This document shows positions 16,837 through 47,482 of a stretch of DNA of 60,736 nucleotides, in pieces. The notes beneath the pieces are model-generated. The model saw nothing but the letters and a program-made list of their open reading frames with translations, had not been told where the DNA came from and searched no databases. The stretch comes from Brachybacterium nesterenkovii (GTDB lineage: Bacteria > Actinomycetota > Actinomycetes > Actinomycetales > Dermabacteraceae), in the NCBI RefSeq assembly GCF_900163655.1, contig NZ_FWFG01000069.1, forward strand, positions 1-60,736. The letters run 5' to 3'. The first letter of the stretch is position 1; the number at the start of each line of letters is the position of its first letter. The position numbers were made by a program, and so were the translations under genes.

Positions 16837-18494
16837 CAGGCGCTCCCCTCGGCGCGCTGCGGGAACAGGCCCTCGGGCAGGCCGGAGCCGTCCCAGTTCA
16901 GCAGGTTCACGCGCTTGCCCTCGGGCCGCGGCACGGCCGTGTTCGCAGTGGTCGGGTCGTTCATCTGCCGCTTGGTGGCGTAGCCGGGGCCGGACATGCC
17001 CAGCGAGTCCTCCGGCAGCGACATCGAGCTCATGCCGGGGCCGCCGGGGGCGTTCAGCGGGCAGTCGGTGCCGATGCCCTCGAGCTCGTGGGCGCTCTCG
17101 ACATGGCCCGTGGGGATCACGTAGCGCTCGGAGTACTTCGCGATCGCCAGCAGGCGGTACATGTCCTGCATGGTGTCGCCGTCCATGCCGACCGCGTTCG
17201 CGATCCCCTCGCGCGGCTCGCGCCCGAGGTTGATGTCGCGCATGTACGAGCGCATCGCGGCCATGCGGTAGAGCACCCGCTCGACCGTCGGGACGTCGCC
17301 CGCGGTGAACAGGTTCGCGAGGTACTCCACGGGGATGCGCAGGGTGTCGATCGCGGCGAACAGGTTCTCCGCGTCCTCCGCGTCGTAGCCCGTGTCTCGG
17401 ACGACGTCGACGACCGGCGACAGCGGCGGGATGTACCAGACCATCGGCATGGTGCGGTACTCCGGGTGCAGCGGCAGCGCGACCTCGTACTCCTTGATGA
17501 GCTTGTAGGTCGGCGAGTTCTGCGCGGCCTCCAGCCAGTCGTTGGGGATGCCGGCGGCGCGCGCCCCCGCGATCACCTCAGGATCGTTCGGGTCCAGGAT
17601 CAGGTCGCGCTGGGCGCGGTACAGATCCTTCTCGTCCGGCGTCGACGCGGCGGCGGTGACCTTGTCCGCGTCGTACAGCACGAGGCCGATGTAGCGCAGG
17701 CGGCCCACGCAGGTCTCGGCGCACACCGTCGGCTCCCCCTGCTCGATGCGGGGGTAGCAGAACGTGCACTTCTCGGCCTTGCCGGTCCTGTGGTTGAAGT
17801 AGATCTTCTTGTACGGGCAGCCGGTGATGCACATGCGCCAGCCGCGGCAGCCGTCCTGGTCCACGAGGACGATGCCGTCCTCCTCGCGCTTGTAGATCGC
17901 GCCGGAGGGGCACGAGGCCGCGCACGTGGGGTTCAGGCAGTGCTCGCAGATGCGCGGCAGGTAGAACATGAAGGTCTTGTCGAACTCGAGCTGGACCTTG
18001 TCCTCGATGCCCTTGAGCATCGGGTCCTTGTCCTTGTGGGCGTAGGTGCCGCCGAGGTCGTCGTCCCAGTTGCCCGACCACTGGATGTCCATCCGCTCGC
18101 CCGTGATGAGCGACTTCGGCGGGGCGGTCGGGATGTTGGGCTGCTGGGCCGGGGCGTTGAGCAGCTTGTCGTACTCGTAGGTCCACGGCTCGTAGTAGTC
18201 CTCGATACCGGGCAGGCGCGGGTTGGAGAACAGCTGCAGGAGCTTGGTGAGGCGGCCGCCGGCCTTCAGGCGCAGGCGACCGTTGGGACCGAGCTCCCAG
18301 CCGCCCTTCCACTTCTCCTGGTCCTCGTAGCCGCGGGGGTAGCCCTGGCCGGGACGGGTCTCCACGTTGTTGAACCAGATGTACTCGGTGCCGCTGCGGT
18401 TGGTCCACGCCTGCTTGCAGGTGACCGAGCAGGTGTGGCAGCCGATGCACTTGTCGAGGTTCATGACCATCGACATCTGTGCCATGACGCGCAT
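16836..18494 (-). CDS. narH: Respiratory nitrate reductase beta subunit
   Basis: A 552-residue iron-sulfur subunit that carries electrons from NarI to NarG. Four Cys clusters are visible: CIGCHTCSVTC near the N-terminus, CEHCLNPTCAASCP, CRGWRMCITGCPY and CTFCYPRI...CAETCVGRLR. The Trp in CRGWRMC is the usual substitution that makes one cluster [3Fe-4S]. The start at 18494 has GAAGGAG 7-8 nt upstream. A 46-nt gap separates it from the end of narG. The gene itself looks fully intact. Confidence 0.97.
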   Translation of the reverse strand: MRVMAQMSMVMNLDKCIGCHTCSVTCKQAWTNRSGTEYIWFNNVETRPGQGYPRGYEDQEKWKGGWELGPNGRLRLKAGGRLTKLLQLFSNPRLPGIEDYYEPWTYEYDKLLNAPAQQPNIPTAPPKSLITGERMDIQWSGNWDDDLGGTYAHKDKDPMLKGIEDKVQLEFDKTFMFYLPRICEHCLNPTCAASCPSGAIYKREEDGIVLVDQDGCRGWRMCITGCPYKKIYFNHRTGKAEKCTFCYPRIEQGEPTVCAETCVGRLRYIGLVLYDADKVTAAASTPDEKDLYRAQRDLILDPNDPEVIAGARAAGIPNDWLEAAQNSPTYKLIKEYEVALPLHPEYRTMPMVWYIPPLSPVVDVVRDTGYDAEDAENLFAAIDTLRIPVEYLANLFTAGDVPTVERVLYRMAAMRSYMRDINLGREPREGIANAVGMDGDTMQDMYRLLAIAKYSERYVIPTGHVESAHELEGIGTDCPLNAPGGPGMSSMSLPEDSLGMSGPGYATKRQMNDPTTANTAVPRPEGKRVNLLNWDGSGLPEGLFPQRAEGSA

Positions 18495-18540
18495 GATGCG
18501 CTCCTTCCGACCCTGGGGCGAGGGTCCGTGTGTCGAGGGG

Positions 18541-21500
18541 TCAGTAGTCCACCGGGGCGGTGCGCTTGCGGATCCGGGTGACCTCGTCGCGCTGGTTGCC
18601 CGTGGGGCCGTAGTAGTTGAAGGCGTAGGACAGCTGGCCGTACCCGCCGATGAGGTGGGAGGGCTTGAGCATGATCCGCGTCATCGAGTTGTGCGTACCG
18701 CCGCGCATCTGGTCGCGCTCCGTCAGGGGCGTGTTGACGGTGCGATCCTGCGCGTGGTGCATGAACGCGGTGCCGCGGGGCATGCGGTGGCTGACCACCG
18801 CACGGGCCGCGACCACGCCATTGCGGTTGGTCGCCTCGATCCAGTCGTTGTCCTCGATGCCGACCGCCTCGGCGTCCTCGACGCTCATCCAGATCGTCTG
18901 CCCGCCGCGGGACAGGTTCATCATGAAGAAGTTCTCCATGTACATCGAGTGGATCGACCACTTGTTGTGGGGCGTCAGGTAGCGCACCGAGATCGAGCGT
19001 CCGTCCTCCTCGCCCAGCGGCGCCTCGCCGAACAGGGCGGTCATGTCCAGCGGCGGGCGGAAGACCGGCAGGCCCTCGCCCATCTCGAGCATCCAGTCGT
19101 GGTCGAGGTAGTAGTGCTGGCGCCCGGTGAGGGTGTGCCAGGGCTTCTTGCGCTCGACGTTGATCGTGAACGGGCTGTAGCGGCGTCCGCCGGTCTCCGA
19201 GCCCGACCACTCCGGGCTCGTGATGACCGGGACCGGGGCTGCCTTGGTGTCGGCGAAGCGGATCTGCTTGCCCTCGTTCTCCCCGGCGAGGTCGTGCAGG
19301 TGCACGCCGGTGCGCTTCTCGAGGGTCTTGAAGCCCTGGGTCGCCATGCGCCCGTTGGTGGTCCCCGACAGCGAGAGGATGAACTCCGCCGCGTTCAGGT
19401 CGGTCGTGAGCTTGGGGCGGCCGTCGGCGGCGGTCCCGGTGCCCCGGTGCACGCCGTTGATCCTCCCGAGCTCATCGACGTACTCGTGGACGTCGTAGGT
19501 GATGCCCTTGGTGGTCATCCCCTTGGACTCGAGCAGCGGGCCGATGGACGTGAACTTCGCGTGGATCTGCGTGTAGTCGCGCTCGACCTCGACCAGGGTG
19601 GGCATGGTCAGCCCCGGGATCGGCTCGCACTCGCCCTTCTTCCAGTCGCGGACGCGGCCGTGCGAGGTTGCGAGCTCGCCGGGCGTGTCGTGCTGGAGGG
19701 GGAAGGCGACGACGTCGGTGCGGGTGCCCAGGTGGGTCTCGGCCAGCTGCGAGAACTTCTTGGCGATCGCCGCCCAGGTCTCCCAGTCGGTGCGCGACTC
19801 CCACGGGTTGGAGATCGCCGGGTTGAACGAGTGGATGAACGGATGCATGTCCGTGGTCGAGAGATCGTGCTTCTCGTACCAGGTCGCGGCGGGCAGCACG
19901 ACGTCCGAGTGCAGCGTGTGGCTGGTCATGCGGAAGTCGAGGGTGAGGACCAGATCGACCTTGCCGATCGGGGCGTCCTCGCGCCACACGACGTCACGGG
20001 GGCGCAGGCCCTCGGGCGTCTCCTCCTCCGTCGCGGCCGAGTCCACGCCCAGCAGGTGGCGGAAGAAGTACTGGTCGCCCTTCGCGGAGGAGCCCAGGGT
20101 GTTCGCGCGCCAGATCGACCAGATGCGCGGGAAGTTCTCGGGCGCGTCCGGGTCCTCGGCGGCGAAGCGGATCGAGCCGTCCTTGAGGGACTTCACGAGG
20201 TAGGGGATGGTCTCCTCCCCCGCCGTCTTCGCGCGCTCGGCCACGTCCAGCGGGCTGATGTCGAACTGCGGGAAGAACGGCTGCCAGCCCAGGCGCTGGG
20301 ACAGGGCGACGGCATCGGCCGTCGTGGTGCCCTGGAAGGAGCCCGCGCCCGTGGTGGCCGCGAGGGTGTCCGCGCCGAAGCGGTCGTAGCGCCACTGGTC
20401 GGTGTGCATGTACCAGTAGGTGGTCTGCGTCATCTGGCGCGGCGGGCGCGACCAGTCGAGCGCGTTGGCCAGGTGCAGCCAGCCGGTGATCGGACGCACC
20501 TTCTCCTGGCCGACGTAATGGGCCCAGCCGCCACCGTTGACGCCCTGGGTGCCGCACAGGTTCGTGAGGGTGAGGAAGGCGCGGTAGATGGTGTCGGAGT
20601 GGAACCAGTGGTTGGTGCCCGCCCCCATGAGGATCATGGAGCGGCCCTTCGAGTCGATCGCGTTCTGGGCGAACTCGCGGGCGATGCGCGCGGCGGCCTC
20701 GCCCGGGACACCGGTGATGGCCTCCTGCCACGCGGGGGTGTACAGCGCCTCGTCGTCATCCAGGCCCGTGGCCCACTGCCCGGGCAGGCCCTCGCGGCCC
20801 ACGCCGTACTCGGCGAGCATCAGGTCGAAGACGGTGGTGACGCGGCGACCGGCGACGGTGCGCACGGGGACCCCGCGCGGCATGTCGCCGCGGCCGCCCT
20901 GGCCTGCGGTGTCGAAACGCGGCAGCAGGACCTCGCGGACCTCGTCGTGGCGTCCCAGCAGGGTGAGCGCCGGGTCGATCTCGCCCAGCTCGAGGTTCCA
21001 GCGCCCCTGGCCGTCGGAGGAGAAGCGGTCGCCCAGGGTGCCGTTCGGGACCACGGCGCGGTCGGTGACGGCGTCCAGCACCATAGGCTTGAAGTCGGCG
21101 TGCTCGCTCGTCGCGTGCTCGGTGACCTCGGCGCCGGCGTCGGAGGCGACGAGGAACTTGCCCGGGACCAGCGAGCCGTCCTCGCGCTCGGTGAGCTCGA
21201 CGAGGAAGGGCAGATCCGTGTACTGCTTGGAGTAGGAGGCGAAGTAGGGCTCGGCGCGGTCGACGTAGAACTCGCGCAGGATCGTGTGGCCCATCGCCAT
21301 CGCGAGCGCGGCGTCGGTGCCGGGGCGGGGCGCCAGCCACTCGTCGGCGAACTTCACGTTCTCCGCGTAGTCGGGGGCGACGGAGATGACCTTCTGGCCG
21401 CGGTAGCGGGCCTCGGCCATCCAGTGGGCGTCCGGGGTGCGGGTCAGCGGGACGTTCGAGCCCCACATGATGAGGTAGGCGGCGTCCCACCAGTCCCCCG

Positions 21501-22286
21501 ACTCCGGGACGTCGGTCTGGTCGCCGAAGACCTGCGGGGAGGCCGGCGGGAGATCCGCGTACCAGTCGTAGAACGACAGCATCGAGCCGCCGATGAGCTG
21601 GTGGAAGCGGGCCCCGAGGAGAACGACACCTGGCTCATCGCGGGGATCGGCGAGAAGCCCGTCGCGCGGTCCGGGCCGAACTCCTTGGTGGTGTGCACGT
21701 AGGCGGCCGCGACGAGCTCGATCGCCTCGTCCCAGGGGGCGCGCACCAGGCCGCCCTTGCCGCGGACCTCCTTGTAGCGCTTGGCCTTGACCGGATCGGA
21801 GACGATCGCGCGCCACGCGGCGACGGGGTCCCCGCCCGCGGTGGCCTTCTCCTCGCGGTACATGCGCAGCAGCTCGGAGCGCACGTACGGGTAGCGCACG
21901 CGCGTGGGCGAGTACGTGTACCAGGAGAACGAGGCGCCGCGGGGGCAGCCGCGGGGCTCGTACTCGGGACGATCGGGGCCGGCCGTCGGGTAGTCGGTCT
22001 CCTGGGACTCCCAGGTGATCACGCCGTCCTTGACGTACACCTTCCACGAGCACGAGCCGGTGCAGTTGACGCCGTGGGTGGAGCGGACCACCTTGTCGTG
22101 GCTCCAGCGCTCCCGGTAGAAAGAGTCGCCGCTGCGACCGCCCACGCGGTGGGTCTCGCGATTGTCCTCCGAGATCCACTCCTTCGAGGAGCGGAAGAAG
22201 CGGCGGGTGCCGATGAGGGCGTCGGAGAGCGGCGAGTCGATGCCTGGTGCGCGGTGCGCGACGGGCTTCTCGTCCGGGATGGTCAT
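18541..22286 (-). pseudogene. narG: Respiratory nitrate reductase alpha subunit, frameshifted as given
   Basis: NarG holds the bis-MGD active site that reduces nitrate to nitrite. Residues 1 to about 225 (from the ATG at 22286, MTIPDEKPVAH) are in one frame and include the N-terminal Fe-S motif HGVNCTGSC. The remaining roughly 1020 residues, from ARFHQLIGGSMLSFYDWYADLP to the stop at 18541, are in another frame. The break is at the G run of SFSSG|ARFH (plus-strand C run 21612-21615). Adding one G there restores a continuous 1248-residue protein of normal length. As written, translation stops soon after the shift. GGAGG lies about 8 nt upstream of the start. Operon partners are intact, so a sequencing error is as likely as a true null. 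Confidence 0.93.
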
Positions 22287-22411
22287 GGGGCGGTACCTCC
22301 GGTGCAGACGCGGCGACCGTGCGGTCGCCGCTGGGGCGGGGCGGCGCACCCGGGGCGGGGTGCGCAGGGAGGGAAGGGCCGCCGGACGAGCGCCCGGCGG
22401 CCGATCCGAGG

Positions 22412-23617
22412 TCAGGCGACGCGACGGCGTCCGCGCGCCACCCAGAGGGTGACGGCGATGGCTCCGAGGGTCGCGAGGAGCAGCAGGGCGATGCCCCAAG
22501 AGTAACTTCCCGTGGCGTTGTGGATAGCGGCCATGACCAGCGGCGGGACGAATCCGCCCAGACCGCCGGCGGCACCGACGAAGCCGGTCACGGTGCCCAC
22601 GTCGGCCGGATCGGTGGTCTGGGCGACGAGGCCGAACACGGCTCCGGTGCCCAGGCCCAGTCCGGCGGCCATGAGCAGGAAGGCCACGGTGCCCAGCGAC
22701 GCCAGCGGCGGCTGGAAGATGAGCACGGCGGCACCGATCGCGACGGCGATGTACGACAGGATCAGGGTGGTGCCGGCCGTGATGCGGTCGGACAGGACAC
22801 CGCCGATCGGGCGCAGCAGGACGGCGAGGATGACGAAGCCGGCCATGCGGAACGAGGCGTCGGAGGCCTCGAGGCCGTACCACTTCTTCAGCATGGTGGG
22901 CAGGAACACCGAGAAGGCGACGTAGCCGCCGAAGGAGAGGGCGTAGAGGTAGCAGGCCTGCCAGGTGGCGACGAGCTTCATCGCGGCGACGGACTGACCC
23001 ACGACGGAGCGCTTGGAGGGGGTCCAGCCCTCGGGCATCGGCATGGCGAGGAAGCCGATCACGGCGAAGGCGACCAGCGCGATCGCGGTGATGATAAAGG
23101 GGGCCGCGTTGCCGACGGACTTCACGAGCGGCACGGTGGTGAAGGCGCTGATGGCGGTGCCGCCCATGCCCATGCCGTAGAGGCCGGTGGCGAGCCCGCG
23201 GCGGGCCGGCGGGAACCAGGAGTTCACGTACGGCATGCCGATCGCGAAGGTCGTGCCCGCGAGCCCGAGGAAGAACCCGCCGACGAGCAGCGTCGTGTAG
23301 TCGTACTGGCCGACGAAGCCGAGGAAGAGCACCGGGATGACGGTCACCAGGCTCATGATCGGGAACATCACGCGCCCGCCGAAGCGGTCGGTGAGGGCAC
23401 CGATCGGGATGCGGCCGAGGGAGCCGACGAGCACGGGGATCGCGACGATCAGCGCGGCGTCCTTCGCGATGCCGCGCTCGACGAAGACGGGCCCGAGGGG
23501 GCTCAGCAGGGCCCAGGCCCAGAAGTTGAGCGCGAAGCCCAACGTCGCGAGGATGAGGGCGCGCACGGCGCCGCGGGGAAGCGCCGAGGAGGACGGTGCG
23601 GCTGCGGTCGATGACAT
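22412..23617 (-). CDS. narK: Nitrate/nitrite MFS transporter
   Basis: A 401-residue major facilitator with 12 predicted helices, of the NarK/NasA type. It would import nitrate and/or exchange it for nitrite. Family marks include the early GFALNFWAWALLSPLGPVF and the motif-A-like GRIPIGALTDRFGGR. The conserved Arg and Gly-rich signature YGMGMGGTAISAF sits in the middle. It is the first gene of the nar operon, 125 bp upstream of narG. The ATG at 23617 has GGAG 8 nt before it. The 168 bases upstream show a possible TAGCCT -10 (23702-23707) but no clear FNR-type palindrome. Confidence 0.94.
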   Translation of the reverse strand: MSSTAAAPSSSALPRGAVRALILATLGFALNFWAWALLSPLGPVFVERGIAKDAALIVAIPVLVGSLGRIPIGALTDRFGGRVMFPIMSLVTVIPVLFLGFVGQYDYTTLLVGGFFLGLAGTTFAIGMPYVNSWFPPARRGLATGLYGMGMGGTAISAFTTVPLVKSVGNAAPFIITAIALVAFAVIGFLAMPMPEGWTPSKRSVVGQSVAAMKLVATWQACYLYALSFGGYVAFSVFLPTMLKKWYGLEASDASFRMAGFVILAVLLRPIGGVLSDRITAGTTLILSYIAVAIGAAVLIFQPPLASLGTVAFLLMAAGLGLGTGAVFGLVAQTTDPADVGTVTGFVGAAGGLGGFVPPLVMAAIHNATGSYSWGIALLLLATLGAIAVTLWVARGRRRVA

Positions 23618-35280: not shown

Positions 35281-35639
35281 CACCGCAGGGCGGACGGGGG
35301 CCGTCCACGATGCGGGACGCCGCGGATCCGGCGGACCCGCCGGATCATTGGCCCGCCCGATCCCTCTCCTCCGCACCGCCCGGGACCGTCGCGTCGCACC
35401 TGTCGCCCGCCACGCCCGGCTCTTGCGCCGCCCCCGCCGTCGCTCCCTGCCCCGGGCTGGCTCTCCACGCGCCGCCCCCCGCGCACCGCACGGGCCGTGG
35501 TGACCTTGGTCGCACGGGACGCGGAAGGCAAATGCCGCGTGGCGCGGCGAGGGCGAAGGTCCTCCCGTCTGTCAGGCGCTCCGCCTACCCTCGAGGACGA
35601 CGCCCCCGCCCCGACGACAGAAGGTTCGAGGAACGCCCC
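35281..35639. other. Divergent ilvB/nirB intergenic region
   Basis: These 359 bases hold the upstream part of the ilvB promoter on the minus strand and the nirB promoter on the plus strand. A candidate nirB -10 is TACCCT at 35586-35591, giving a 5' UTR of about 40 nt. No conserved small gene is evident. I cannot identify a nitrogen-regulator site with confidence. Confidence 0.4.
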
Positions 35640-38327
35640 ATGACCTCTTCCGAGACCGCAGCCCCCCTGGACGCCTCTCCCCTCATCAGCGCCGCGAGCA
35701 CCGCGCCGTCCCTCGACGAACAGCGCATCGTCGTGGTCGGCGGCGGAATGACCGGCCACCGCTTCGCCGCCCGCCTGCAGGCGCAGGACCCGCAGGGCGC
35801 CTGGCGCCTCACGGTGATCGGCGAGGAGCCCCAGCAGCCCTACGACCGCGTGCACCTGTCCAACTGGTTCACCCGGAAGGACGCGAGCATGCTCGCCCTG
35901 GACACCGCCGTCTGGGACGACCCGCGCATCGAGCTCGTGACCGGCGACAAGGTCGAGGCGATCGACCGCGATGCGCAGACGGTGACGACCGCCGCCGGTG
36001 TCGTCCACCCCTACGACCGGCTCGTCCTGGCGACGGGCTCGTGGGCCTGGGCGCCGCGCGCCGAGGGCAAGGACCTCCCCGGCTCCTTCTCCTACCGCAC
36101 CGTCGAGGACGTCGAGAACCTCGCCGCCTGGGTCGCGGACCGCTCGCAGGCCCTGGGCCGTCCGCTGCGCGGCGTCGTGGTCGGCGGCGGCGTGCTGGGC
36201 CTCGAGGCCGCGGCCGCGCTGAAGAACATGGAGGTCGACACGACGGTCGTCGAGTTCGCCGACCGCCTGATGTCGGTCCAGCTCGACCAGGGCGGCGGCG
36301 AGATGCTGCGCCTGCTCATCGAGGACCTCGGCATCCACGTGCGCACCGGCGTGGGCGCGAGCCGCTTCACGGCGGCCGAGGACGGCGCCATGGGCACCGC
36401 CCACCTGTCCGACGACTCCGAGGTCCCCGCGGACGTCGTCGTCTTCTCCACCGGCATCCGCCCTCGCGACCGCGTGGCCCGCGAGGCCGGCCTCGCGATC
36501 GGCGAGCGCGGCGGCGTGATCGTCGGCGAGACCTGCCAGACCTCGGACCCGTCGATCTGGGCGATCGGCGAGTGCGCCTCCTACGAGGGCGTGTGCGCCG
36601 GGCTCATCGCCCCGGGCAACGACATGGCCGACGTGGTCGTCGACGCCTTCCTGGGCGGCGACCGCACCCACCACCGCGCCGACGACGGCACCAAGCTCAA
36701 GGGCGTGGGCGTCGAGGCCGCGGCCTTCGGCGACGTCAACGCGGTCTCCGCGGGCGCCCTCGAGGTGTCCTTCGTGGACCCGGTCCACCGCAACTACCGC
36801 AAGCTCGTCATGTCCGACGACGCGAAGATCCTGCTCGGCGGCGTCTTCGTGGGCGACATCGAGCTGTACTCGGCCCTGCGCCCCCTCATCGGGCGCGAGC
36901 TGGGCGCCGACCCGTCGGCCGTCATCGCGCCCGAGGGCGCGGGCGACGCGATGGCGGGGGCGGAGCTTCCCGACGACGCCGTGGTCTGCTCGTGCAACAA
37001 CGTCGCCGCGGGCACGATCCGCGAGGCCATCACCGAGCACGACTGCCACACGGTCGGCGCGATCAAGGAGTGCACCAAGGCCGGCACCGTCTGCGGCTCG
37101 TGCGTCCCGACGCTGACGAAGCTGCTGAACAAGGAGCTCGAGAAGAGCGGCATCGCCGTCTCCAAGGCCCTGTGCGAGCACTTCGCGATGCCCCGCGCCG
37201 AGTTGTTCAAGCTCGTGGAGGAGGGCGGCCAGGAGACCTTCACCGAGGTCGTCACCGCCCATGGCCGCGGGCGCGGCTGCGCCGTCTGCCGCCCGGTCGT
37301 CGCCTCGATCCTGTCGACGCTCGGCGCGATCACGGGCCGTCGCCACAACCCGGTGGGCCGCCAGCTCGGCGCCCTGCAGGACACCAACGACTTCGTGATG
37401 GCCAACATCCAGAAGGACGGCACCTACTCGGTGATCCCGGCGATCCCGGCCGGAGAGATCACGCCGGACAAGCTGATGGTCATCGCCGAGGTCGCCAAGG
37501 ACTACGGCCTGTACGTCAAGCTCAACGGCGCCCAGCGCATCGGCATGTTCGGCGCGCGCCTCGAGCAGCTCCCGGAGATCTGGAAGCGCCTGGTGGACGC
37601 CGGTTTCCAGAGCGGGCACGCGTACGGCAAGTCGCTGCGCATGGTCAAGGCGTGCCTGGGCACGAACTGGTGCCGCTTCGGCGTGCAGGACTCGACGACC
37701 CTCGCGGTCGCCTTCGAGAAGCGCTACCGCGGCCTGCGGTCCCCGCACAAGATCAAGATCTCCGTGTCGGGCTGCGCGCGCGAGTGCGCCGAGGCCCAGG
37801 GCAAGGACGTCGGCATCATCGCCACGAACAAGGGCTGGAACCTGTACGTGGGCGGCAACGGCGGCATGACCCCGGCGCACGGCAAGCTGCTCGCGGAGGA
37901 CCTCGACGAGGTCACCCTCCAGCGCTGCATCGACCGCTTCCTCATGCTGTACATCCGCGAGGCCGACAAGGTCCAGCGCACGGCCCGCTGGGTCGAGGAG
38001 TACCCGGGCGGCATCGAGGAGCTGCGCCGCGTGATCGTCGACGACACGCTCGGCATCGGCGAGCAGCTCGAGGAGGCCATGCAGCGTCACGTCGACTCCT
38101 ACGTGGACGAGTGGGCCGAGGCGGTCTACAACCCCGAGCGCGCCGCGAAGTTCGTGTCGTTCGTCAACGCGCCCGATCAGTCGGACCCGCAGCTGGCCTA
38201 CGTCATCGAGCGCGGCCAGCCGCGTCCGGCGCAGCCGGGCGAGACGGACACGTTCCCGACCATGCAGGCCGCGAGCCAGCACGCCATGGCCCACCCGGGC
38301 ACCGCCGACGCCGACCTCGAGAACTGA
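35640..38327 (+). CDS. nirB: Assimilatory nitrite reductase, large subunit
   Basis: An 895-residue NAD(P)H-dependent siroheme enzyme reducing nitrite to ammonia in the cytoplasm. The N-terminal FAD/NAD domain (about 25-330) begins IVVVGGGMTGHRFA. A BFD-type [2Fe-2S] region has CSCNN near 450 and CGSC near 484. The C-terminal siroheme/[4Fe-4S] ligands are C-x5-C in CLGTNWCRFG (about 671-677) and C-x3-C in SGCARECAEA (about 711-715). The start is supported by GAGGAA 8 nt upstream. It is followed by nirD after 12 nt. Confidence 0.96.
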   Translation: MTSSETAAPLDASPLISAASTAPSLDEQRIVVVGGGMTGHRFAARLQAQDPQGAWRLTVIGEEPQQPYDRVHLSNWFTRKDASMLALDTAVWDDPRIELVTGDKVEAIDRDAQTVTTAAGVVHPYDRLVLATGSWAWAPRAEGKDLPGSFSYRTVEDVENLAAWVADRSQALGRPLRGVVVGGGVLGLEAAAALKNMEVDTTVVEFADRLMSVQLDQGGGEMLRLLIEDLGIHVRTGVGASRFTAAEDGAMGTAHLSDDSEVPADVVVFSTGIRPRDRVAREAGLAIGERGGVIVGETCQTSDPSIWAIGECASYEGVCAGLIAPGNDMADVVVDAFLGGDRTHHRADDGTKLKGVGVEAAAFGDVNAVSAGALEVSFVDPVHRNYRKLVMSDDAKILLGGVFVGDIELYSALRPLIGRELGADPSAVIAPEGAGDAMAGAELPDDAVVCSCNNVAAGTIREAITEHDCHTVGAIKECTKAGTVCGSCVPTLTKLLNKELEKSGIAVSKALCEHFAMPRAELFKLVEEGGQETFTEVVTAHGRGRGCAVCRPVVASILSTLGAITGRRHNPVGRQLGALQDTNDFVMANIQKDGTYSVIPAIPAGEITPDKLMVIAEVAKDYGLYVKLNGAQRIGMFGARLEQLPEIWKRLVDAGFQSGHAYGKSLRMVKACLGTNWCRFGVQDSTTLAVAFEKRYRGLRSPHKIKISVSGCARECAEAQGKDVGIIATNKGWNLYVGGNGGMTPAHGKLLAEDLDEVTLQRCIDRFLMLYIREADKVQRTARWVEEYPGGIEELRRVIVDDTLGIGEQLEEAMQRHVDSYVDEWAEAVYNPERAAKFVSFVNAPDQSDPQLAYVIERGQPRPAQPGETDTFPTMQAASQHAMAHPGTADADLEN

Positions 38328-38339
38328 GGAGCCTGAGAG

Positions 38340-38759
38340 ATGAGCACCCTGAGCACCGATCGCGGCTCCGCCGCCGAGATGGTCGACATCTGCGCCGTCG
38401 ACGCCCTGAGCATCGACCGCGGCGCCGCCGCCCTGCTGCCCGACGGCACGCAGATCGGCGTGTTCCTCCTCGAGGACGGGAGCGTCCACGCGGTCCAGCA
38501 GCACGACCCGTACTCGGGCACGAACATCCTCTCGCGCGGCCTCGTGGGCACCCACGAGGTCCCGGGCGAGGGCGATGAGCCCGCGACCGTGGTGCCGACG
38601 CTGGCCTCGCCGATGTACAAGCAGGTGTGGAACATGGACACCGGCGAGGTGATCGACGCGGCCGGCGGCGAGAAGCTGCCGATCGACGTGTTCGACGCCG
38701 AGGTCCGGGACGGCCGCCTGCTCGTGTCCGCCTCGCCGCGGCCGCGCGCCGCCGCCTGA
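38340..38759 (+). CDS. nirD: Assimilatory nitrite reductase, small subunit
   Basis: A 139-residue protein with a Rieske-like fold. Like other NirD proteins it lacks the Cys/His cluster ligands of true Rieske proteins (the expected loop reads QQHDPYSGTNIL). It pairs with NirB in the NADH-dependent reductase. It starts 12 nt after nirB, with a purine-rich ribosome site in between, and its stop overlaps the next ATG (TGATG). Confidence 0.95.
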   Translation: MSTLSTDRGSAAEMVDICAVDALSIDRGAAALLPDGTQIGVFLLEDGSVHAVQQHDPYSGTNILSRGLVGTHEVPGEGDEPATVVPTLASPMYKQVWNMDTGEVIDAAGGEKLPIDVFDAEVRDGRLLVSASPRPRAAA

Positions 38760-40474
38760 TGGCGGATACCGCCGGAGACGTCGCGTCGAGCGGGGTCACG
38801 GGGCGCGGCGCGCCCGACCCCGGGGATGCGGGGCGCCTGGGCGATCCGCTGTCCGTCGACGCCCTCTCCCCCGCGCGTCTGGCGCCCGGGTCCGTCGCCC
38901 TCGTCGGCGGCGGGCCCGGGGCCCTCGACCTCATCACCGTGCGGGGCCTGGCCCTGCTGCGGCAGGCCGATGTGGTGGTCGTCGACCGCCTCGGTCCCGC
39001 CGGCCTCGTCGGCATGCTCGGCGAGGGCGTCACGGTGATCGAGGTGGGCAAGACGCCGGGCCGCCCCTCGATGAGCCAGGGCGAGATCGACGCCGTGCTC
39101 GTGGAACAGGCGCGCGCCGGGCACCGGGTCGTGCGCCTCAAGGGCGGGGACCCGTTCGTGCTGGGCCGCGGCGGCGAGGAGGTCCTCGCCTGCCGCAGGG
39201 CCGGGATCGACGTGCAGGTGGTCCCCGGCGTGACCTCGGCGATCGCCGGGCCCGCCGCGGGCGACGTGCCGGTGACGCATCGCGGCACCGCCGTGGCCCT
39301 GCACATCGTCAACGCGCACGGGGACCTGGGGCCCGCGGATCTCGCTGCCCTGCGCGACCCGGGCACGACGACGGTGCTGATGATGGGCGTCTCGTGGCTG
39401 CCGCGCCTGGCGGCGCAGGCGATGCTCAACGGCATCGACCCGACGACCCCGGTCGCGGTGGTCCAGAGCGCGACCACGGATTCCCAGCGGGAGGTGCGCG
39501 GGACGCTCGCGACGATCGTCGAGGCGGTCGAGCGCGAGGGCGTGACGAACCCGGCCGTGATCACGGTGGGGCGCACGAGCGCCGAGGGCTTCCTCGTCCC
39601 GGATGCTCTGGACTATGTAGCGGATGCGGAACGCCTGCGCCGCTCGGGCCGTCAGGCCCTGGCCGACGGCGATGACCGCGCCGTCTCCGAGGCCGGTGCG
39701 GACACGGCCGCGACGGAGACGGTCGGCGCCGCCGCGGACACGGCTCCCGTCAGCCCCTCCCCCGTCCTGATCGGCTGCGCCCATGGCACGCGCGACCGGG
39801 CCGGACGCGATGTGGTGCGCGCGATCATGATGCGCGTGCGCTCGACGATGCCGGGCACGGTCGTGCGCGAGGCGTACGTGGACGTGCAGGAGCCCGAGGT
39901 GGGCGATGTGGTCCGCGAGACCGCGGGCCCGGTGGAGGTGCTGCGCACCCGCGAGACCGAGGACGCGCCCGAGGCCGTCGTCGTGCCGCTGCTGCTGTCG
40001 ACCGGCTTCCACGTGGGCCATGACATCGAGGCCGCGATCGCCGGGCACCGGGCCGTCTCGGCCGGTCCGCTCGGTCCCGATCCGCGCCTGGCGGCCGTCA
40101 TGGCCGAGCGTCTGCGGGAGGCGGGGCTCGCCGAGGGCGATGCCGTGGTGATGGCCGTGGCCGGGACCAGGAACAGGGCCGGTCAGGCGATGGCGCGGGA
40201 GATGCTACCGCTGCTCTCCGCGGAGCTCGGGCGCAAGGTGTCCATCGGGTTCATCGCCGCCGCCCAGCCGTCGGTCGCCGATGCCGTGACCGCAGCCCGG
40301 GCAGGGCTCCCCGCGGGCGGGCGCGTCGCCGTGGCGAACTACCTGCTCGCCCCGGGGCACTTCCAAAAGGCGCTGGCCGACTGCGGCGCCGACATCGTGG
40401 CCGAGCCCCTGGGCGATCACCCGCTCATCGCCGAGATCGTCGCGGACCGCTACGAGGCGGCCATCGGCGGCTGA
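38759..40474 (+). CDS. Fused uroporphyrinogen-III methyltransferase and sirohydrochlorin chelatase
   Basis: A 571-residue two-domain enzyme for siroheme, the cofactor of NirB. Residues about 45-290 are a SUMT/CobA methyltransferase with the SAM loop VGGGPGALDLITVRG and the VVRLKGGDPFVLGRGGEE motif. Residues about 335-570 are a CbiX/SirB-type ferrochelatase (VLIGCAHGTRDRAGR, with His residues near LSTGFHVGHDI). An acidic linker joins them. The intermediate precorrin-2 dehydrogenase domain of CysG is absent and must come from elsewhere. The start overlaps the nirD stop. Confidence 0.93.
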   Translation: MADTAGDVASSGVTGRGAPDPGDAGRLGDPLSVDALSPARLAPGSVALVGGGPGALDLITVRGLALLRQADVVVVDRLGPAGLVGMLGEGVTVIEVGKTPGRPSMSQGEIDAVLVEQARAGHRVVRLKGGDPFVLGRGGEEVLACRRAGIDVQVVPGVTSAIAGPAAGDVPVTHRGTAVALHIVNAHGDLGPADLAALRDPGTTTVLMMGVSWLPRLAAQAMLNGIDPTTPVAVVQSATTDSQREVRGTLATIVEAVEREGVTNPAVITVGRTSAEGFLVPDALDYVADAERLRRSGRQALADGDDRAVSEAGADTAATETVGAAADTAPVSPSPVLIGCAHGTRDRAGRDVVRAIMMRVRSTMPGTVVREAYVDVQEPEVGDVVRETAGPVEVLRTRETEDAPEAVVVPLLLSTGFHVGHDIEAAIAGHRAVSAGPLGPDPRLAAVMAERLREAGLAEGDAVVMAVAGTRNRAGQAMAREMLPLLSAELGRKVSIGFIAAAQPSVADAVTAARAGLPAGGRVAVANYLLAPGHFQKALADCGADIVAEPLGDHPLIAEIVADRYEAAIGG

Positions 40475-40607: not shown

Positions 40608-42440
40608 TCAGGGAAGCGGGCGGCGGGTGGCCCCGTAGGTCGCGGACCGCACCAGGTGGGCGTAGACCTTGAGGGCCTGCGACACCTCGCGCTCGCGCTT
40701 CTCGGGGCGCCACGGCAGCGGGCCCTTCTTCTCGCGGCGGCGGGCGATCTCCTCGTCGCTCACCTCGAGCTGCAGCAGGCGCTTGTCGACGTCCATGACG
40801 ATCCGGTCGCCGTCCTCGATGAGGCCGATGAGCCCGCCTTCGGCCGCCTCCGGGGAGATGTGCCCGATTGACAGGCCCGAGGTGCCGCCGGAGAAGCGGC
40901 CGTCGGTGATCAGCGCGCAGGCCTTGCCCAGGCCGCGGCCCTTGAGGAACGACGTCGGGTAGAGCATCTCCTGCATGCCGGGGCCGCCCTGGGGGCCTTC
41001 GTAGCGGATGACGACGACGTCGCCCTCCTTCACGGTCTTGTCCAGGATCTTCTGCACAGCCTCCTCCTGGGAGTCGCACACGACGGCGCTGCCCTCGAAG
41101 TGGAAGAGGTCCTCGGTGATGCCCGCGGTCTTGATGACGCAGCCGTCCTCGGCCAGGTTGCCCTTGAGCACGCACAGGCCGCCGTCCTTGGTGAAGGCGT
41201 GCGGGACGGCGCGGATCACGCCGTTCTCGGCATCGGTGTCCAGCTCCTTCCACACGTTCTCGGTGCTGAACGCCTGCGTGGTCCGCACCCCGCCGGGGGC
41301 GGCGTGGAAGAGCGCGTCGGCCTCCGTCGAGGTCTTGCCGGAGCGGATGTCCCAGGCGTCCAGCCACGTGGTGAGGTCGGGGGCGTGGATCGCGTGGACG
41401 GAGTGGTCCAGCAGGCCCGCCCGGTCGAGCTCGCCGAGGATCGCGGGAATGCCGCCGGCGCGGTGGACGTCCTCGATGTGGGCGGTGCCGTTGGGGGCGA
41501 CCTTGGACAGGCACGGCACGGAGCGCGAGAGGCGGTCGATGTCGTCGAGGCCGAAGTCGATCTCCCCCTCGATGGCGGCGGCGAGGATGTGCAGCACCGT
41601 GTTGGTGGAGCCTCCCATCGCGACGTCCAGGCTCATCGCGTTGGTGAACGCCGCCTTGGTGGCGATGTTCCGCGGGAGCACCGAGGCGTCGTCCTCGTCG
41701 TACCAGCGCCGGGCGAGATCGACGATGGTGCGCCCGGCCCGCAGGAACAGCTCCTTGCGGAAGGCGTGGGTCGCCAGCGTGGTGCCGTTGCCCGGCAGCG
41801 ACAGCCCGAGCGCCTCGGTCAGGCAGTTCATCGAGTTGGCGGTGAACATGCCCGAGCAGGAGCCGCAGGTGGGGCAGGCGTTGTCCTCGATCTCGGCGAG
41901 CTGGGCATCGGTCACGGACTCGTCAGCACTGATGGAGATCGCGTCGACGAGGTCGAGGCGGTGCTCGACGACGCCCTCGACGGGCTTGCCGGACTCCATC
42001 GGGCCGCCGGAGACGAAGACGACGGGGATGTTCAGGCGCATCGCGGCCATGAGCATGCCCGGGGTGATCTTGTCGCAGTTGGAGATGCACACGAGCGCGT
42101 CCGCGCAGTGGGCGTTGACCATGTACTCCACGGAGTCGGCGATGACGTCGCGGCTGGGCAGCGAGTAGAGCATGCCGCCGTGGCCCATGGCGATGCCGTC
42201 GTCGACCGCGATCGTGTTGAACTCGCGGGCGATGCCGCCGGCCTCCTTGACGGCGCCGGCCACGAGATCGCCCATGTTCTTCAGGTGCACGTGCCCGGGC
42301 ACGAACTGGGTGTACGAGTTCGCGATGGCGACGATCGGCTTGCCAAAGTCCGAGGACTCCATACCGGTGGCGCGCCACAGGGCGCGGGCGCCGGCCATGT
42401 TGCGGCCGTGGGTCGAGGTGCGGGAGCGGAGTGCAGGCAT
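40608..42440 (-). CDS. ilvD: Dihydroxy-acid dehydratase
   Basis: A 610-residue Fe-S dehydratase acting after IlvC in Ile and Val synthesis. Cluster-binding Cys lie in [10 protein letters not shown] and in [16 protein letters not shown]-terminal swivel domain includes [15 protein letters not shown]. The start at 42440 ([21 protein letters not shown]) lies 6 nt after TAGGAT (42447-42452), so its transcript looks leaderless and separate from the ilvBNC block 5 kb away. Confidence 0.96.
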
Positions 42441-42446
42441 GGGTCG

Positions 42447-42452
42447 ATCCTA
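42447..42452 (-). promoter_or_regulatory. -10 box of ilvD (leaderless start)
   Basis: TAGGAT on the minus strand, six bases, then ATG at 42440. Confidence 0.6.
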
Positions 42453-42541
42453 CCGGCCGACCGAGATGCGAGACAGGGTGCTCACCATGCGACCGGCGCT
42501 CTCGTCAGCGACGGCCTCGGAGCGGTGCCGGATGTCATCGG

Positions 42542-44086
42542 TCAGAGCCCCCGCTGCATGAGTCGTGCTGCGTGGCGGAACGGGACCGCCACCAGCAGGG
42601 CGCCGCCCACGAAGTTGCCGACCGTGGTCAGAGCGAGGTTGCGGAGCATCCCGTGCTCACCGAGGCCCCACGTGAGGCCCGGGTCGAGCACCTGGCCGGG
42701 ATGGAACGCGGCGAGCAGCAGCGGGAGCCCGATGAAGGCGATGTTCGCGATGACGTGCTGCGTGCCGGCCGCCACGAACGCGAACGGTCCGTAGAACGCG
42801 AAGCCCATCCGGGCGACGTCGGTGCGCGCCTTGAAGAACAGGAACATCGCGGTCTGGAGGAACCACGTGCACAGCACCGCGAGCAGGAGCGCGGCGACCG
42901 GGCCCTCCCCCGCCTTCGCGGTCCCTATCGCTGCGGCGCGGCGCGCGAAGCCCTCCGTGAGATAGGGGCCGCCGGCCGCGGCGGCGACCCCGATGAGCGC
43001 GAGCGCTCCCGCGAGGTTCCCGACCAGTCCCAGGGCGAGGAAGCACAGGTATGACAGGACGCCGAGCCGCCGATCGAGCACCGCGACGAGCCCAGCGGCC
43101 ATGTCGGCGGTGATGAGCGAGGCGCCCGAGACGAGGATCAGGACGAAGGAGAAGCCGAAGGCGAGCCCCATGACCAGGCTCGCGATGCCGGGGACGGTGA
43201 TCCCGGTGCTCACGTTCACCGAGAGGATCACCCCGAAGGCGACCATCGCGCCCCCGATGAGCGCGCGCACGAGCATGGAGCGAGGATGGTGCGCCTTCTC
43301 GAGCGCGACCGCGACGACGCGGTCGACCATCTCGGGGATCCCGAACGGCTCGAGGTGCGACGCGGCGGTGGCGTCCGTCGCGAGGGCCGGGGGCACGGGT
43401 CGGACATCGCCCTCGGGGGCAGGGGCGCGGGGCGCGGTCGCGGGCGGTGATGCGGTCTCAGCGGGCACGAGGCTGGCCTTCCGGGCTGGGATGTGGCAGG
43501 GACGGACGGGATCAGGGACTGGGCGGGGCGTCGAGCCCTCGGGCAGCCGCTCGGGCGGGACCCAGTCGTGCATGGTCCCCGAGTGGTAGAGGAGCGGCTG
43601 CTCCTCGGAGCGGTGCAGCTCGACGGCGCGGATCAGGAGGATGACGTGATCGCCGGCGTCGTAGATCCGCTCGGTGTACCCGCTCACCCAGGCGGAGGTG
43701 CCCGCGAGGAGGGGTGCTCCGTGGAGGCCCGGCACGTGATCGACTCCCTCGAAGCGGTCCTCGACGCGGCTCGCGAAGCGCCGCGCGAGCGAGGCCTGGC
43801 TGCGCGAGAGCACGTTGACCGCGAGGTGACGCCCCACCCGGAAGGCCGGCAGCGTGCCGGCCGTCCGCGCGACGCACACGAGCAGGAGGGGAGGATCGAG
43901 CGAGACGGAGGTGAAGGAGCTGACCGTCATCCCCACCGGTCGGCCTCCGAGGGTGGTGGTCACGATCGTGACGCCGGTGGGGAACGCGCCCATCACCGAG
44001 CGCATCACGGTGGGATCCACGGCCACGCTCCGCGTCCAGTCCTCGTGAACGGGATGCTCGGCGGTGGGGGTGCTCGTCAGTGGCAT
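42542..44086 (-). CDS. Flavin reductase domain fused to a formate/nitrite-type (FNT) channel
   Basis: One uninterrupted 514-codon ORF. Residues about 25-175 are a flavin reductase-like FMN-binding split barrel (VMRSVMGAFPTGVTIVTT, VSSFTSVSLDPPLLLVCV, LAVNVLS), the type that supplies FMNH2 to two-component monooxygenases. A Pro/Ala-rich linker spans about 176-250. Residues 253-514 (from MVDRVVAVALEKAHH) are a six-helix FNT-family membrane domain, with asparagine- and glycine-rich pore-type segments such as GTQHVIANIAFIG and VGNFVGGALLVAV. FNT channels pass formate, nitrite or hydrosulfide. The ATG overlaps the stop of the flavoprotein gene, so the two are coupled. I do not know this fusion as a named protein. 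An internal start at M253 lacks an obvious ribosome site. Confidence 0.85.
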   Translation of the reverse strand: MPLTSTPTAEHPVHEDWTRSVAVDPTVMRSVMGAFPTGVTIVTTTLGGRPVGMTVSSFTSVSLDPPLLLVCVARTAGTLPAFRVGRHLAVNVLSRSQASLARRFASRVEDRFEGVDHVPGLHGAPLLAGTSAWVSGYTERIYDAGDHVILLIRAVELHRSEEQPLLYHSGTMHDWVPPERLPEGSTPRPVPDPVRPCHIPARKASLVPAETASPPATAPRAPAPEGDVRPVPPALATDATAASHLEPFGIPEMVDRVVAVALEKAHHPRSMLVRALIGGAMVAFGVILSVNVSTGITVPGIASLVMGLAFGFSFVLILVSGASLITADMAAGLVAVLDRRLGVLSYLCFLALGLVGNLAGALALIGVAAAAGGPYLTEGFARRAAAIGTAKAGEGPVAALLLAVLCTWFLQTAMFLFFKARTDVARMGFAFYGPFAFVAAGTQHVIANIAFIGLPLLLAAFHPGQVLDPGLTWGLGEHGMLRNLALTTVGNFVGGALLVAVPFRHAARLMQRGL

Positions 44087-45138
44087 GAGGCGAGCTCCCA
44101 GCGCAGCTGCCCCTCCGACGGGGACTGGACGGGGATGAAGGCCGCCTCCCGGAAGCGCCGGTTGGCCGGCGTCGCGCTCGCGTACCCCTTGCCTCCGGCC
44201 GTGCGCAGCTCGAGGCCCGCCGCGTCGGTCGCGATCTCCGCCGCGGCCAGGCGCAGGGCGAGCAGCTCGGCCTTCGCCGGAGTCGCCGAGCCGCCGACGC
44301 GGTCGGCGAGCTGACGCATGGTCGCCCGGGCCAGGGTGTGGCGGCCGAACACGCCGTCCAGCTCGGCCGCGTACGTGCTCGTGACCCCCACGAGGCCCTC
44401 CCGGGCCTGCTGGACGCTGGTCCCGGCGACTCCCAGGCACATCGCGGTCTGCAGGATCGTGAAGGTCGGCCGGACCCGGGTGAGGAACTCGGCCGTGTCC
44501 TGCGTCAGCACCTGCTCGTGCGGGATGCGGACGTCCTCGAGCGTCAGGGAGGAGGACGCCGTGGAGCCGAGGGCAAGCAGCGAGAACGGCGCGCCGACAG
44601 TGACGCCGTCCGTGTCGAGCGGGAGCTGGACGATGACCTTGCCGCCCGTGGCGGTGCGGGCCGCCGTAACCATGACCGAGTCCTCGAACAGGTTGCTCGC
44701 CCACCGGATCGGGCCGCTGACGACGAAGCCGTCGTCGACGGGGTCGGCCGTGAGCTCGAGGGTGCCGCAGCCGGCGAGGTCCTTGAAGGCCGAGGCCATG
44801 CCGGTGATGCCGAGGACCTCACCCGTCGCGAGGCGCTCGGCCTGCTCGATCGCGGTGGGCGTGCCCGCGGTGCGGAGGTACTCGATCGTCATGCGCGTGG
44901 CCCACAGGGAGAACGCGGTGCTCATGCATCGCGCCGCGATCGACTCGATGACGCCCGCCATCTCGGCCAGCGTGCCGTTGCCGGTGTCCGGGGCCCCGAG
45001 GTCGAGCACGCCCTCGGCCCCGAGGGTCGGGAAGATCGAGCGGGTCGCGGTCTCTCCGCGGTCCACGGCGCCCGCCGCGGAGGCGATGGCATCCAGTGTG
45101 GCGTCGGTGATCCGGGAGCGGTTCAGGACTGCGGTCAT
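44077..45138 (-). CDS. Acyl-CoA-dehydrogenase-like flavoprotein, possible FMNH2-dependent monooxygenase
   Basis: A 353-residue member of the acyl-CoA dehydrogenase fold superfamily: an N-terminal helical domain, a middle beta domain (LEDVRIPHEQVL) and a C-terminal four-helix bundle ending AGGKGYASATPANRRFREAAF and QLRWEL. That C-terminus resembles the DszC/SfnB-like monooxygenase side of the family more than beta-oxidation enzymes, but this is a judgement from memory. It sits between an OsmC gene and a flavin reductase, which fits a two-component monooxygenase. The ATG at 45138 is preceded by a purine-rich CAGGAGAG stretch. Confidence 0.8.
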   Translation of the reverse strand: MTAVLNRSRITDATLDAIASAAGAVDRGETATRSIFPTLGAEGVLDLGAPDTGNGTLAEMAGVIESIAARCMSTAFSLWATRMTIEYLRTAGTPTAIEQAERLATGEVLGITGMASAFKDLAGCGTLELTADPVDDGFVVSGPIRWASNLFEDSVMVTAARTATGGKVIVQLPLDTDGVTVGAPFSLLALGSTASSSLTLEDVRIPHEQVLTQDTAEFLTRVRPTFTILQTAMCLGVAGTSVQQAREGLVGVTSTYAAELDGVFGRHTLARATMRQLADRVGGSATPAKAELLALRLAAAEIATDAAGLELRTAGGKGYASATPANRRFREAAFIPVQSPSEGQLRWELASCH

Positions 45139-45161
45139 GGGGCTCTCCTGGAGGACGCGGA

Positions 45162-45698
45162 TCAGGCGACGACGAGGGTCGAGACGAGCTCGACCGGGCG
45201 CCGGAAGGTGTTGACGACGGGAGACCAGCGGATCGCGTTGTCGTGGATCTCCTGCAGCGTCTGCTCGTCGGTGTCGCCCGCGAGCGTCACCGTGCAGCGC
45301 ACGTCGGTGAAGCCGGGGACCTTGTCCTCGGGCACATCGCCGATGCCCCAGACGGCGGAGATGTCGATGTCGCCCTCCATGGCGACCTCGATCCTCGTGA
45401 GGGTGACCTCGCGGTGCGTGGCGTTGGCGAGCATTCCGACGGAGATGCACGAGCCGAGGGCGGCGAGGGCCATCTCGGAGGGGTTGGGGGCGGAGTCGTC
45501 GCCGAGCAGCGCCGGGGGCTCACCCACGAGCACGGGCGCGAGATCGCGCACGTAACTCATGTTGCGGAAGCCCGATTCGCAGACGGTGGTCGCCCTGAGC
45601 GTCTTGCGGCCCGTGGTCGGGTCCTCCTTGGCGGAACAGGACAGGCGGTCCAGCCCCTCCGCGTCGATGCCCACCAGGTTCGTGATGTTCGTGGTCAT
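45162..45698 (-). CDS. OsmC-family protein
   Basis: A 178-residue OsmC/Ohr-fold protein. The second redox Cys lies in MALAALGSCISVGMLANA, and an earlier Cys (TTVCESGF or SCSAKED) could be the partner. Members are thiol peroxidases for organic hydroperoxides, or uncharacterised relatives. The start at 45698 has GAAGGAGAG about 8 nt upstream. An in-frame upstream start at 45752 is rejected. It is the first gene of a three-gene unit, 23 nt before the flavoprotein gene, behind an iron-box-like site. Confidence 0.88.
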   Translation of the reverse strand: MTTNITNLVGIDAEGLDRLSCSAKEDPTTGRKTLRATTVCESGFRNMSYVRDLAPVLVGEPPALLGDDSAPNPSEMALAALGSCISVGMLANATHREVTLTRIEVAMEGDIDISAVWGIGDVPEDKVPGFTDVRCTVTLAGDTDEQTLQEIHDNAIRWSPVVNTFRRPVELVSTLVVA

Positions 45699-45777
45699 GG
45701 TCTTCTCTCCTTCGTGCGACAGAGGGCGGGGCCGCGCGATTCGAGGGCGCACGCCCCCTCCTCGACATAACGTGTCC

Positions 45778-45796
45778 TTAGGTGAGCCTATCGCTG
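45778..45796. promoter_or_regulatory. DtxR/IdeR-like iron box upstream of the OsmC operon
   Basis: TTAGGTGAGCCTATCGCTG matches the DtxR consensus (TWAGGTWAGSCTWACCTWA) at about 13-14 of 19 positions, with one half-site essentially perfect. It lies 80 bp upstream of the OsmC start, near a possible -10 (TTATGT on the minus strand). Iron-dependent repression is inferred, not shown. Confidence 0.55.
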
Positions 45797-45896
45797 TTCT
45801 TTGGAAATGGGGCGCTCGGGGTCACGGAGGTTCATCCGCCGAGGTCGCACGGAGACGCACGAGCGCTCCCCGGGTCGCGGGGCCCGGGCCGCGCAC

Positions 45897-45934
45897 GACG
45901 ACGGGCCCCTGCCGTATGGCAGGGGCCCGTCGTC
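45897..45934 (-). terminator. Terminator of gatCAB
   Basis: A 17-bp perfect stem (45897-45913 with 45918-45934) and a 4-nt loop lie 37 nt past the gatB stop. It is the strongest hairpin in the window. Confidence 0.9.
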
Positions 45935-45970
45935 AGGGTCGCCGGTGCGCGGAGCCCGGCCTCGGCAGTG

Positions 45971-47482
45971 TCAGCCCTCGACGTCGACCTTCTCGAGGAT
46001 GATCTCCCGCACGCGACCGGCGTCGGCCTGGCCCCGGGTGGCCTTCATGATCGGGCCGATGAGGGCGCCGATCGCCTGCACCTTGCCGCCCTGGATCTTG
46101 GCGACCACGTCGGGGTTGTCGGCGAGCGCCTGGTCCACGGCCGCGGTCAGCACCGAGTCGTCGGAGACGACGGCGAGGCCCTCGGCCTCGACGATCGCCG
46201 CGGGGTCGCCCTCGCCCGCCAGGACCTTGCCCAGCACGGTGCGCGCGATCTTGTCGTTGATCTTCTTGTCGTCGATCAGCTTCTGCAGCTGGGCCACCTG
46301 TGCCGGGGTCACGGCCAGGGCGTCGAGCTCGACGTCCTGCTCGCGCGCCGTACGGGCCAGCTCGCCCATCCACCACTTGCGGGCGCTCTGGGCGCTCGCA
46401 CCGGCGGCGACGGTCTGCTCGATGGGGTCGAGGGCGCCGGCGTTGGTGGCGTCGCGCATCTCGAGATCGGTGAAGCCCCACTCCCCCAGCAGGCGACGGC
46501 GACGGGCCGCCGGCAGCTCCGGCAGGGACGAGCGGATCTCCTCGACCCACTCGCGGCTCGGGGCCACGGGCACGAGGTCGGGCTCGGGGAAGTAGCGGTA
46601 GTCCTCCGCATCGGACTTCATGCGGCCCGAGCTCGTGGAGCCGTCCTCCTCGTGGAAGTGACGGGTCTCCTGGACCACGCTGCCGCCCTCGTCGAGGATC
46701 CCGGCGTGGCGGGAGATCTCGTAGCGGACCGTCTTCTCGATCGAGCGGAAGGAGTTGACGTTCTTGGTCTCCGAGCGGGTGCCGAGCGGCGCCTCCGGAT
46801 TCGCGCGCAGCGACACGTTGACGTCGGCGCGCACGTTGCCGCGCTCCATGCGGGCCTCCGACACGTCGAGCGCCCGGAAGATGTCGCGCAGGGTCCGCAC
46901 ATACGCGGCGGCGACCTCGGGGGTGCGCTTCCCGGTGCCCGTGATGGGCCGGGTCACGATCTCCACGAGCGGGACGCCCGCGCGGTTGTAGTCGACGAGG
47001 GAGTGCGTGGCGCCGTGGATGCGGCCGGTGGAGCCGCCGACGTGGGTGTTCTTGCCCGCGTCCTCCTCCATGTGCGCGCGCTCGATCTCCACGCGGAAGA
47101 CCTCCCCATCCTCGAGCTCGACGTCGATGAAGCCGTCGTGCGCGATCGGCTCGTCGTACTGCGAGGTCTGGAAGTTCTTCGTGAGGTCCGGGTAGAAGTA
47201 CTGCTTGCGCGCGAAGCGGCAGGACTCGGCGATCTCGCAGTTCAGCGCGAGGCCGATGCGGATCGCGTACTCGACGGCCTTGGCGTTGACCACCGGCAGC
47301 GTGCCGGGCAGGCCCAGGGACACCGGGGTGATGGCCGTGTTCGGCTCCGCGGCGAAGATGTTCGGCGCGCCGTCGAACATCTTGGTGGCGGTGCCGAGCT
47401 CGACGTGGACCTCGATGCCCAGGACCGGGTCGTAGCGGTCGGTCGCGTCGTCAAAGGGGACGAGGGTGTCTGCAGCGGTCAC
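45971..47482 (-). CDS. gatB: Asp/Glu-tRNA amidotransferase subunit B
   Basis: A 503-residue subunit that binds the mischarged Glu-tRNA(Gln) (or Asp-tRNA(Asn)) and activates it with ATP. The core begins [16 protein letters not shown], with Zn/substrate motifs around [12 protein letters not shown] and the following region. A C-terminal YqeY-like tRNA-binding domain ends the protein. A GTG start overlaps the gatA stop (GTGA). It supplies Gln-tRNA from the tRNA-Gln encoded at the left end of the window. Confidence 0.96.

Follow-up and report, generated by a model that had tools for sequence, protein, structure and literature searches.

Channels of the formate/nitrite transporter (FNT) family carry a central histidine as pore residue and, as far as we are aware, are stand-alone channels. 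Short-chain flavin reductases of the HsaB, HpaC and FerA type serve two-component monooxygenases. Gene neighbourhoods that place an FNT channel next to cyanase have been described in nitrifiers and in M. smegmatis (msmeg_5358-5360). In the passages cited here, a low-affinity cyanate channel is the role proposed for the nitrifier FNT whose gene adjoins cynS, an assignment that its authors call uncertain (PMC10753782), and M. smegmatis cynS (msmeg_5359) and a 'formate-nitrate transporter' gene (msmeg_5360) change strongly together under nitrogen starvation (PMC4222082). A further passage reports that the cyanate hydratases of M. abscessus increase when it is co-cultured alongside a cyanide-producing organism (PMC12098619). 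The likeness of the nitrifier and M. smegmatis neighbourhoods to the cluster described below is that an FNT gene adjoins cynS, a comparison drawn from description and not from sequence, and the difference is that the cited passages show no OsmC, acyl-CoA-dehydrogenase-like (ACD) or flavin reductase (FR) gene.

Here we describe a locus of Brachybacterium nesterenkovii, in a window of 60,736 nt (the whole stretch of DNA that was analysed), at which one open reading frame joins an FR to an FNT channel. Literature searches returned no description of an FR-FNT fusion, nor of the surrounding cluster, and this cluster of OsmC, ACD and FNT, often with cyanase, an ECF sigma factor and FR, is apparently uncharacterised. 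Should the cell make the fused protein, it would be an enzyme-channel fusion and a natural test of whether FNT flux is coupled to an adjacent enzyme. If a stop codon has only been lost, the locus still points to a conserved OsmC-ACD-FNT cluster that predicts a testable small-anion pathway, and the operon is more interesting than the fusion.

Domains of the reading frame

The frame encodes 514 residues (~53.7 kDa) on the minus strand and runs without an internal stop from an ATG at 44086-44084 to a TGA at 42544-42542 (Table 1), exactly as the initial annotation had placed it. Both domains that it named are present. PF01613 matches the N-terminal half at 132.1 bits (cut-off 27) over profile positions 1-152 of 153, and PF01226 matches the C-terminal half at 142.2 bits (cut-off 34.6) over positions 1-238 of 240, such that each match covers the full domain far above its cut-off. 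The gap between the two matches is 76 residues, where ~75 had been claimed. A single-sequence AlphaFold2 model of P0001 came out at a mean pLDDT of 39.9 and a pTM of 0.27, and no conclusion is drawn from it.

Table 1 Features of the locus (positions in the window)
Feature	Position	Strand	Evidence
Fused FR-FNT ORF, flavin reductase + FNT channel	42542..44086	-	ORF translation, Pfam
Flavin reductase domain (FR; FMN-binding split barrel), residues 32-175	43562..43993	-	PF01613 Flavin_Reduct 132.1 bits; 65% identity to the stand-alone FR at locus L128
FNT channel domain, residues 252-503	42578..43333	-	PF01226 Form_Nir_trans 142.2 bits; central His in GTQHVIAN
Junction (residues 176-206), resembling a spacer, with poor codon usage	43469..43561	-	Codon adaptation; off-frame TGA 43514-43512
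GGAAGG, Shine-Dalgarno-like, 8 nt 5' of GTG	43477..43482	-	Motif match; relatives' FNT starts preceded by similar GAAAGG or GAAGGG
GTG (codon 207), candidate internal start, free-standing FNT 308 aa, ~31.5 kDa	43466..43468	-	Inferred
Pro/Ala-rich channel N-tail, residues 207-245	43352..43468	-	Relatives' separate FNT genes also tailed
OsmC-like protein (alternative GTG start 45752)	45162..45698	-	PF02566 73 bits; 79% identity to L128 OsmC
ACD, acyl-CoA-dehydrogenase-like flavoprotein, candidate oxygenase partner	44077..45138	-	Orthologue in 23/23 compared loci; stop overlaps FR start
Insert between ilvD (40608-42440) and gatB (45971-47482)	42441..45970	-	ilvD-gatB spacing in genus-mates

The FR resembles reductases of the HsaB, HpaC and FerA type in that it matches their whole domain, with HsaB as best NCBIfam match and 3rh7 as best PDB match. 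It differs from them in falling below every NCBIfam equivalog cut-off (HsaB, 126.6 of 230 bits) and in being joined to a membrane channel. The channel shares with FocA, NirC and the hydrosulfide channel the whole PF01226 domain and the central histidine, since its GTQHVIAN aligns with FEHSVAN/FDHVVAN, the equivalent motif elsewhere in the family, and its best PDB matches, 3tdp and 3tdo, are what we take to be the Clostridium hydrosulfide channel (the PDB listing says only formate/nitrite transporter). It differs from these channels in scoring below the NCBIfam cut-offs for FocA (TIGR04060 equivalog, 81.6 vs 290.1 bits), NirC (NF008595 equivalog, 48 vs 293 bits) and the general fnt family. Moreover, among the members listed from an alignment of 34, Gln precedes the central His in the channel's clade (6/6), whereas Asp or Glu takes this place in other FNTs (8/8). 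Within the order, the closest FNTs share 32-40% identity and adjoin formate dehydrogenase and sel genes, as read by eye; that the present protein passes formate for such a dehydrogenase was rejected because its orthologues at 54-63% identity adjoin OsmC and ACD. The same genome encodes a second FNT (locus L061, C73:12420-13220, 236 bits), which has the usual FEHSVANM motif.

Separate genes in relatives and the junction between the domains

A fundamental question is whether the fusion is conserved. At E <= 1e-40 the only match within the window's genus was the genome itself (1/38), with no second FR-FNT fusion. No other match spanned both domains among 58 relatives, 248 genomes of the order, 246 of the class and 276 of the phylum (overlapping draws), nor among 248 genomes of another genus of the same class (g96, which we take to be Mycobacterium); these large searches scored the best 5-6 candidates per genome. 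A scan of genome contigs matched four loci, all with FR and without FNT, and none of the 822 matching plasmid records reached 80% coverage. The search for the same fusion in other genomes that the initial annotation had proposed therefore yielded no second case, and a conserved FR-FNT fusion family was rejected, since no second genome with this architecture was present in any set searched.

The sole source of true orthologues in the class draw was g96, in which the FNT part was found in 42/248 genomes at 54-63% identity. In 13 of those 42, FR (presence defined as E <= 1e-45) was the gene immediately preceding FNT, at 54-64% identity. We compared 23 loci, namely all 13 that bear FR and 10 of the 29 other FNT-positive genomes. 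FR and FNT are two separate genes in every one of the 13 pairs, such that FR terminates at a stop of its own, 9-10 residues past an HDW motif, and the FNT gene is read in another frame. The FNT start follows the FR stop by 38-41 nt at 10 loci and by 14 nt at one, and overlaps it at two; these starts were chosen by hand, and the frame difference is independent of them. Because the relatives carry two neighbouring genes, the fusion looks like a one-off. For this reason the suggestion that the system is built around a tether was not borne out: a stop stands between the domains in 13/13 orthologous pairs, all from another genus, and the window's genus holds no orthologue besides the ORF itself. 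We consider it rather probable, judging from these comparisons, that the frame arose as a lineage-specific fusion of the adjacent operon genes FR and FNT, through loss of the stop or of the frame difference between them.

An alternative hypothesis is that the fusion was selected as a functional tether, which would hold FR at the channel pore and couple flavin chemistry to anion flux. The ORF is intact and both domains are conserved. According to the cited passages of one source, FNT N-termini are cytoplasmic and FocA offers a precedent for direct enzyme-channel contact, with PflB/TdcE (PMC5572259). A fused reductase would thus face the correct membrane side. However, the architecture was found in one genome only and all 13 orthologous pairs are separate, and the 10 compared FNT orthologues from the other g96 genomes have no FR within the covered region, which indicates that the channel works without FR. 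The codon usage of the junction, described next, bears on the tether in both directions, and overall we regard it as unlikely.

By itself the stop-free junction is weak evidence, since 31 codons (residues 176-206) would lack a stop with a probability of ~0.75 at the junction's base composition; the unusual features are that FR has no stop of its own and that FNT lies in the FR frame. Codon adaptation of residues 176-206 is below that of 99.4% of same-length coding segments, and that of residues 188-206 below 99.3%, the segments being drawn from 13 window genes that also served as the training set. The value for the junction falls inside the range of presumed intergenic stretches, which were picked by the analyst and of which the high-GC ones reach -0.60. 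This spacer-like character argues against a selected tether. The N-tail (residues 207-245) is equally low (0.68%), so the junction does not stand out from the tail in this respect. On the other side, frame 0 of residues 176-206 outscores 4000 of 4000 sampled off-frame coding segments; the junction is thus not merely non-coding-looking, which favours the tether.

The GTG at 43468 lies 39 residues before an EPF motif, with GGAAGG 8 nt upstream, and in locus L097 the FNT gene likewise shows GAAAGG and starts with GTG at the corresponding place. In the relatives, the tail that precedes the conserved EP(L/F) of the FNT spans 17-26 residues at the 13 FR-bearing loci and is longer at several others. 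Taken together, these tails and the position of the GTG indicate that residues 176-206 match the FR end plus spacer. The Pro/Ala-rich linker proposed at the outset therefore holds in its length and fails as a dedicated linker, since it reads as a spacer-like part plus an FNT N-tail with a candidate internal start. In our reading the junction was once a spacer and is open by chance, and the candidate GTG probably still starts a separate FNT, perhaps alongside some of the full-length fusion of 53.7 kDa.

Could the open frame be an artefact? A miscounted base in the junction, through an assembly or sequencing error, would make two normal genes appear as one. The fusion is supported by one genome only, the junction is C-rich, frame +2 carries a TGA inside it at 43514-43512, and all relatives have a stop there. 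However, completeness of the assembly stands at 99.98% and contamination at 0.16%, and the large window genes inspected read through, and such an error strikes us as quite unlikely.

The gene cluster in relatives and a proposed pathway

At locus L128 (positions 2795-8233) and at other g96 loci the genes run in the order OsmC - cyanase - ACD - ECF sigma factor - small protein - FR - FNT - universal stress protein. When the L128 proteins were compared with the 23 loci by tblastn, OsmC, ACD and FNT were each found at 23, the ECF sigma factor and the small protein after it at 21 each, the universal stress protein at 18, cyanase at 17 and FR at 13. Loci L141 and L142 hold OsmC-ACD-FNT alone, such that those three look like the core. 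Compared with plasmid records, the DNA of L128 gave two Rhodococcus matches, which covered no more than 2%. The cyanase identity is supported by 150.7 bits to cynS (cut-off 113.3), and the ECF-type sigma factor was likewise confirmed (Pfam, NCBIfam). The small protein has no Pfam or NCBIfam match, and our guess from its position and Cys pattern is that it may be an anti-sigma factor. FR co-occurs with cyanase, which is present at 13/13 FR-bearing loci vs 4/10 of the others (Fisher p 0.002, for loci that are related to one another).

The ACD protein has short-chain acyl-CoA dehydrogenase as its best PDB match and falls far below the equivalog cut-off for SfnB, a sulfur acquisition oxidoreductase (TIGR04022, 29.8 vs 430.9 bits). 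The catalytic Glu of acyl-CoA dehydrogenases sits in a C-terminal YEG-type motif; ACD lacks this usual motif and has PVQSPSE instead, a pairing extended by eye because the HMMER alignment ends just before it, and QSPSE is present in 23/23 orthologues. OsmC-ACD pairs also occur with a nitrate/sulfonate-type ABC transporter (L076, L081; Corynebacterium occultum plasmid, G210), and there the transporter replaces FR and FNT. A distant ACD relative (29%) on a Synechococcus elongatus plasmid (L080, 7995-9056) lies beside ABC transporter, cysteine synthase and catalase-type genes, possibly a sulfur-acquisition setting.

We hypothesize that FR would pass reduced flavin (FMNH2) to ACD, which, as the oxygenase of a two-component system, may act on a small compound that bears sulfur or nitrogen, while FNT would conduct a small monovalent anion, either substrate or product, and OsmC may handle peroxide or reactive sulfur. 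The initial annotation had a reductase feeding an oxygenase at the membrane; the feeding part is consistent with an FR that shares its operon with a flavoprotein it could feed, encoded just upstream with an overlapping stop, and the tether as a design is the part that did not hold. The cyanase in the cluster of 17/23 compared relatives would suggest cyanate as the anion. No cyanase was found in the window, nor in the genome at E 0.001, in a search whose control matched Synechococcus elongatus and not E. coli. Since E. coli carries cynS, the sensitivity of this search is uncertain. With that doubtful control, the lack of a cyanase match makes cyanate doubtful in this organism; cyanate as a settled substrate was rejected on this ground, and we consider a cyanate or thiocyanate reading somewhat unlikely.

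A bolder proposal is that the OsmC-ACD-FR-FNT cluster, joined in relatives by cyanase and its own ECF sigma factor, would form an undescribed oxidative pathway for a small sulfur or nitrogen compound, perhaps from thiocyanate to cyanate, with the reductase here tethered as the first known flavin-reductase channel. We think this very unlikely as a whole and give it some weight because the fusion may still be made.

Genomic setting of the block

In the window, OsmC, ACD and the fused ORF follow one another on one strand, the fused ORF last, with 23 nt between the OsmC stop and the ACD start, and they separate gatB from ilvD by ~3.5 kb (3531 nt). In a genus sample of 30 genomes, ilvD was found in 28 others, at 29 loci whose flanks extend to at most 1.5 kb. 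Within this flank gatB was present at 11/29 loci, which come from 10 genomes; its distance from ilvD is 105-224 nt in six of these genomes and 932-1108 nt in the other four. At 18/29 it lay outside the flank covered. Given this variable spacing the OsmC-ACD-FR-FNT block looks acquired, and the operon probably arrived as one block.

The window also holds nirB and nirD (35310-38759), and NirC belongs to the FNT family. One could therefore take the channel as a nitrite channel for nirBD and the nitrate reductase genes of the window, to which the flavin genes would be incidental. However, the channel reaches only a small part of the NirC cut-off, as given above, 23/23 compared orthologous loci pair FNT with OsmC and ACD, and the genome has its second FNT. 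Moreover, cobA-cbiX adjoins ilvD at 16/29 genus-mate loci without this channel, which marks the genes on the nir side as ancestral and the channel as a later arrival. A nitrite channel is for these reasons highly improbable.

Two further observations concern the nitrogen genes of the window. The probable nitrate reductase genes lie with a transporter at 15275-23617 on the minus strand, as read by eye from translations. Beside nirB/nirD, the cobA-cbiX ORF (38756-40474, plus strand) joins a uroporphyrinogen-type tetrapyrrole methylase to a CbiX chelatase (siroheme synthesis), and its matches at those 16/29 ilvD loci mean that this fusion, unlike FR-FNT, is shared in the genus.
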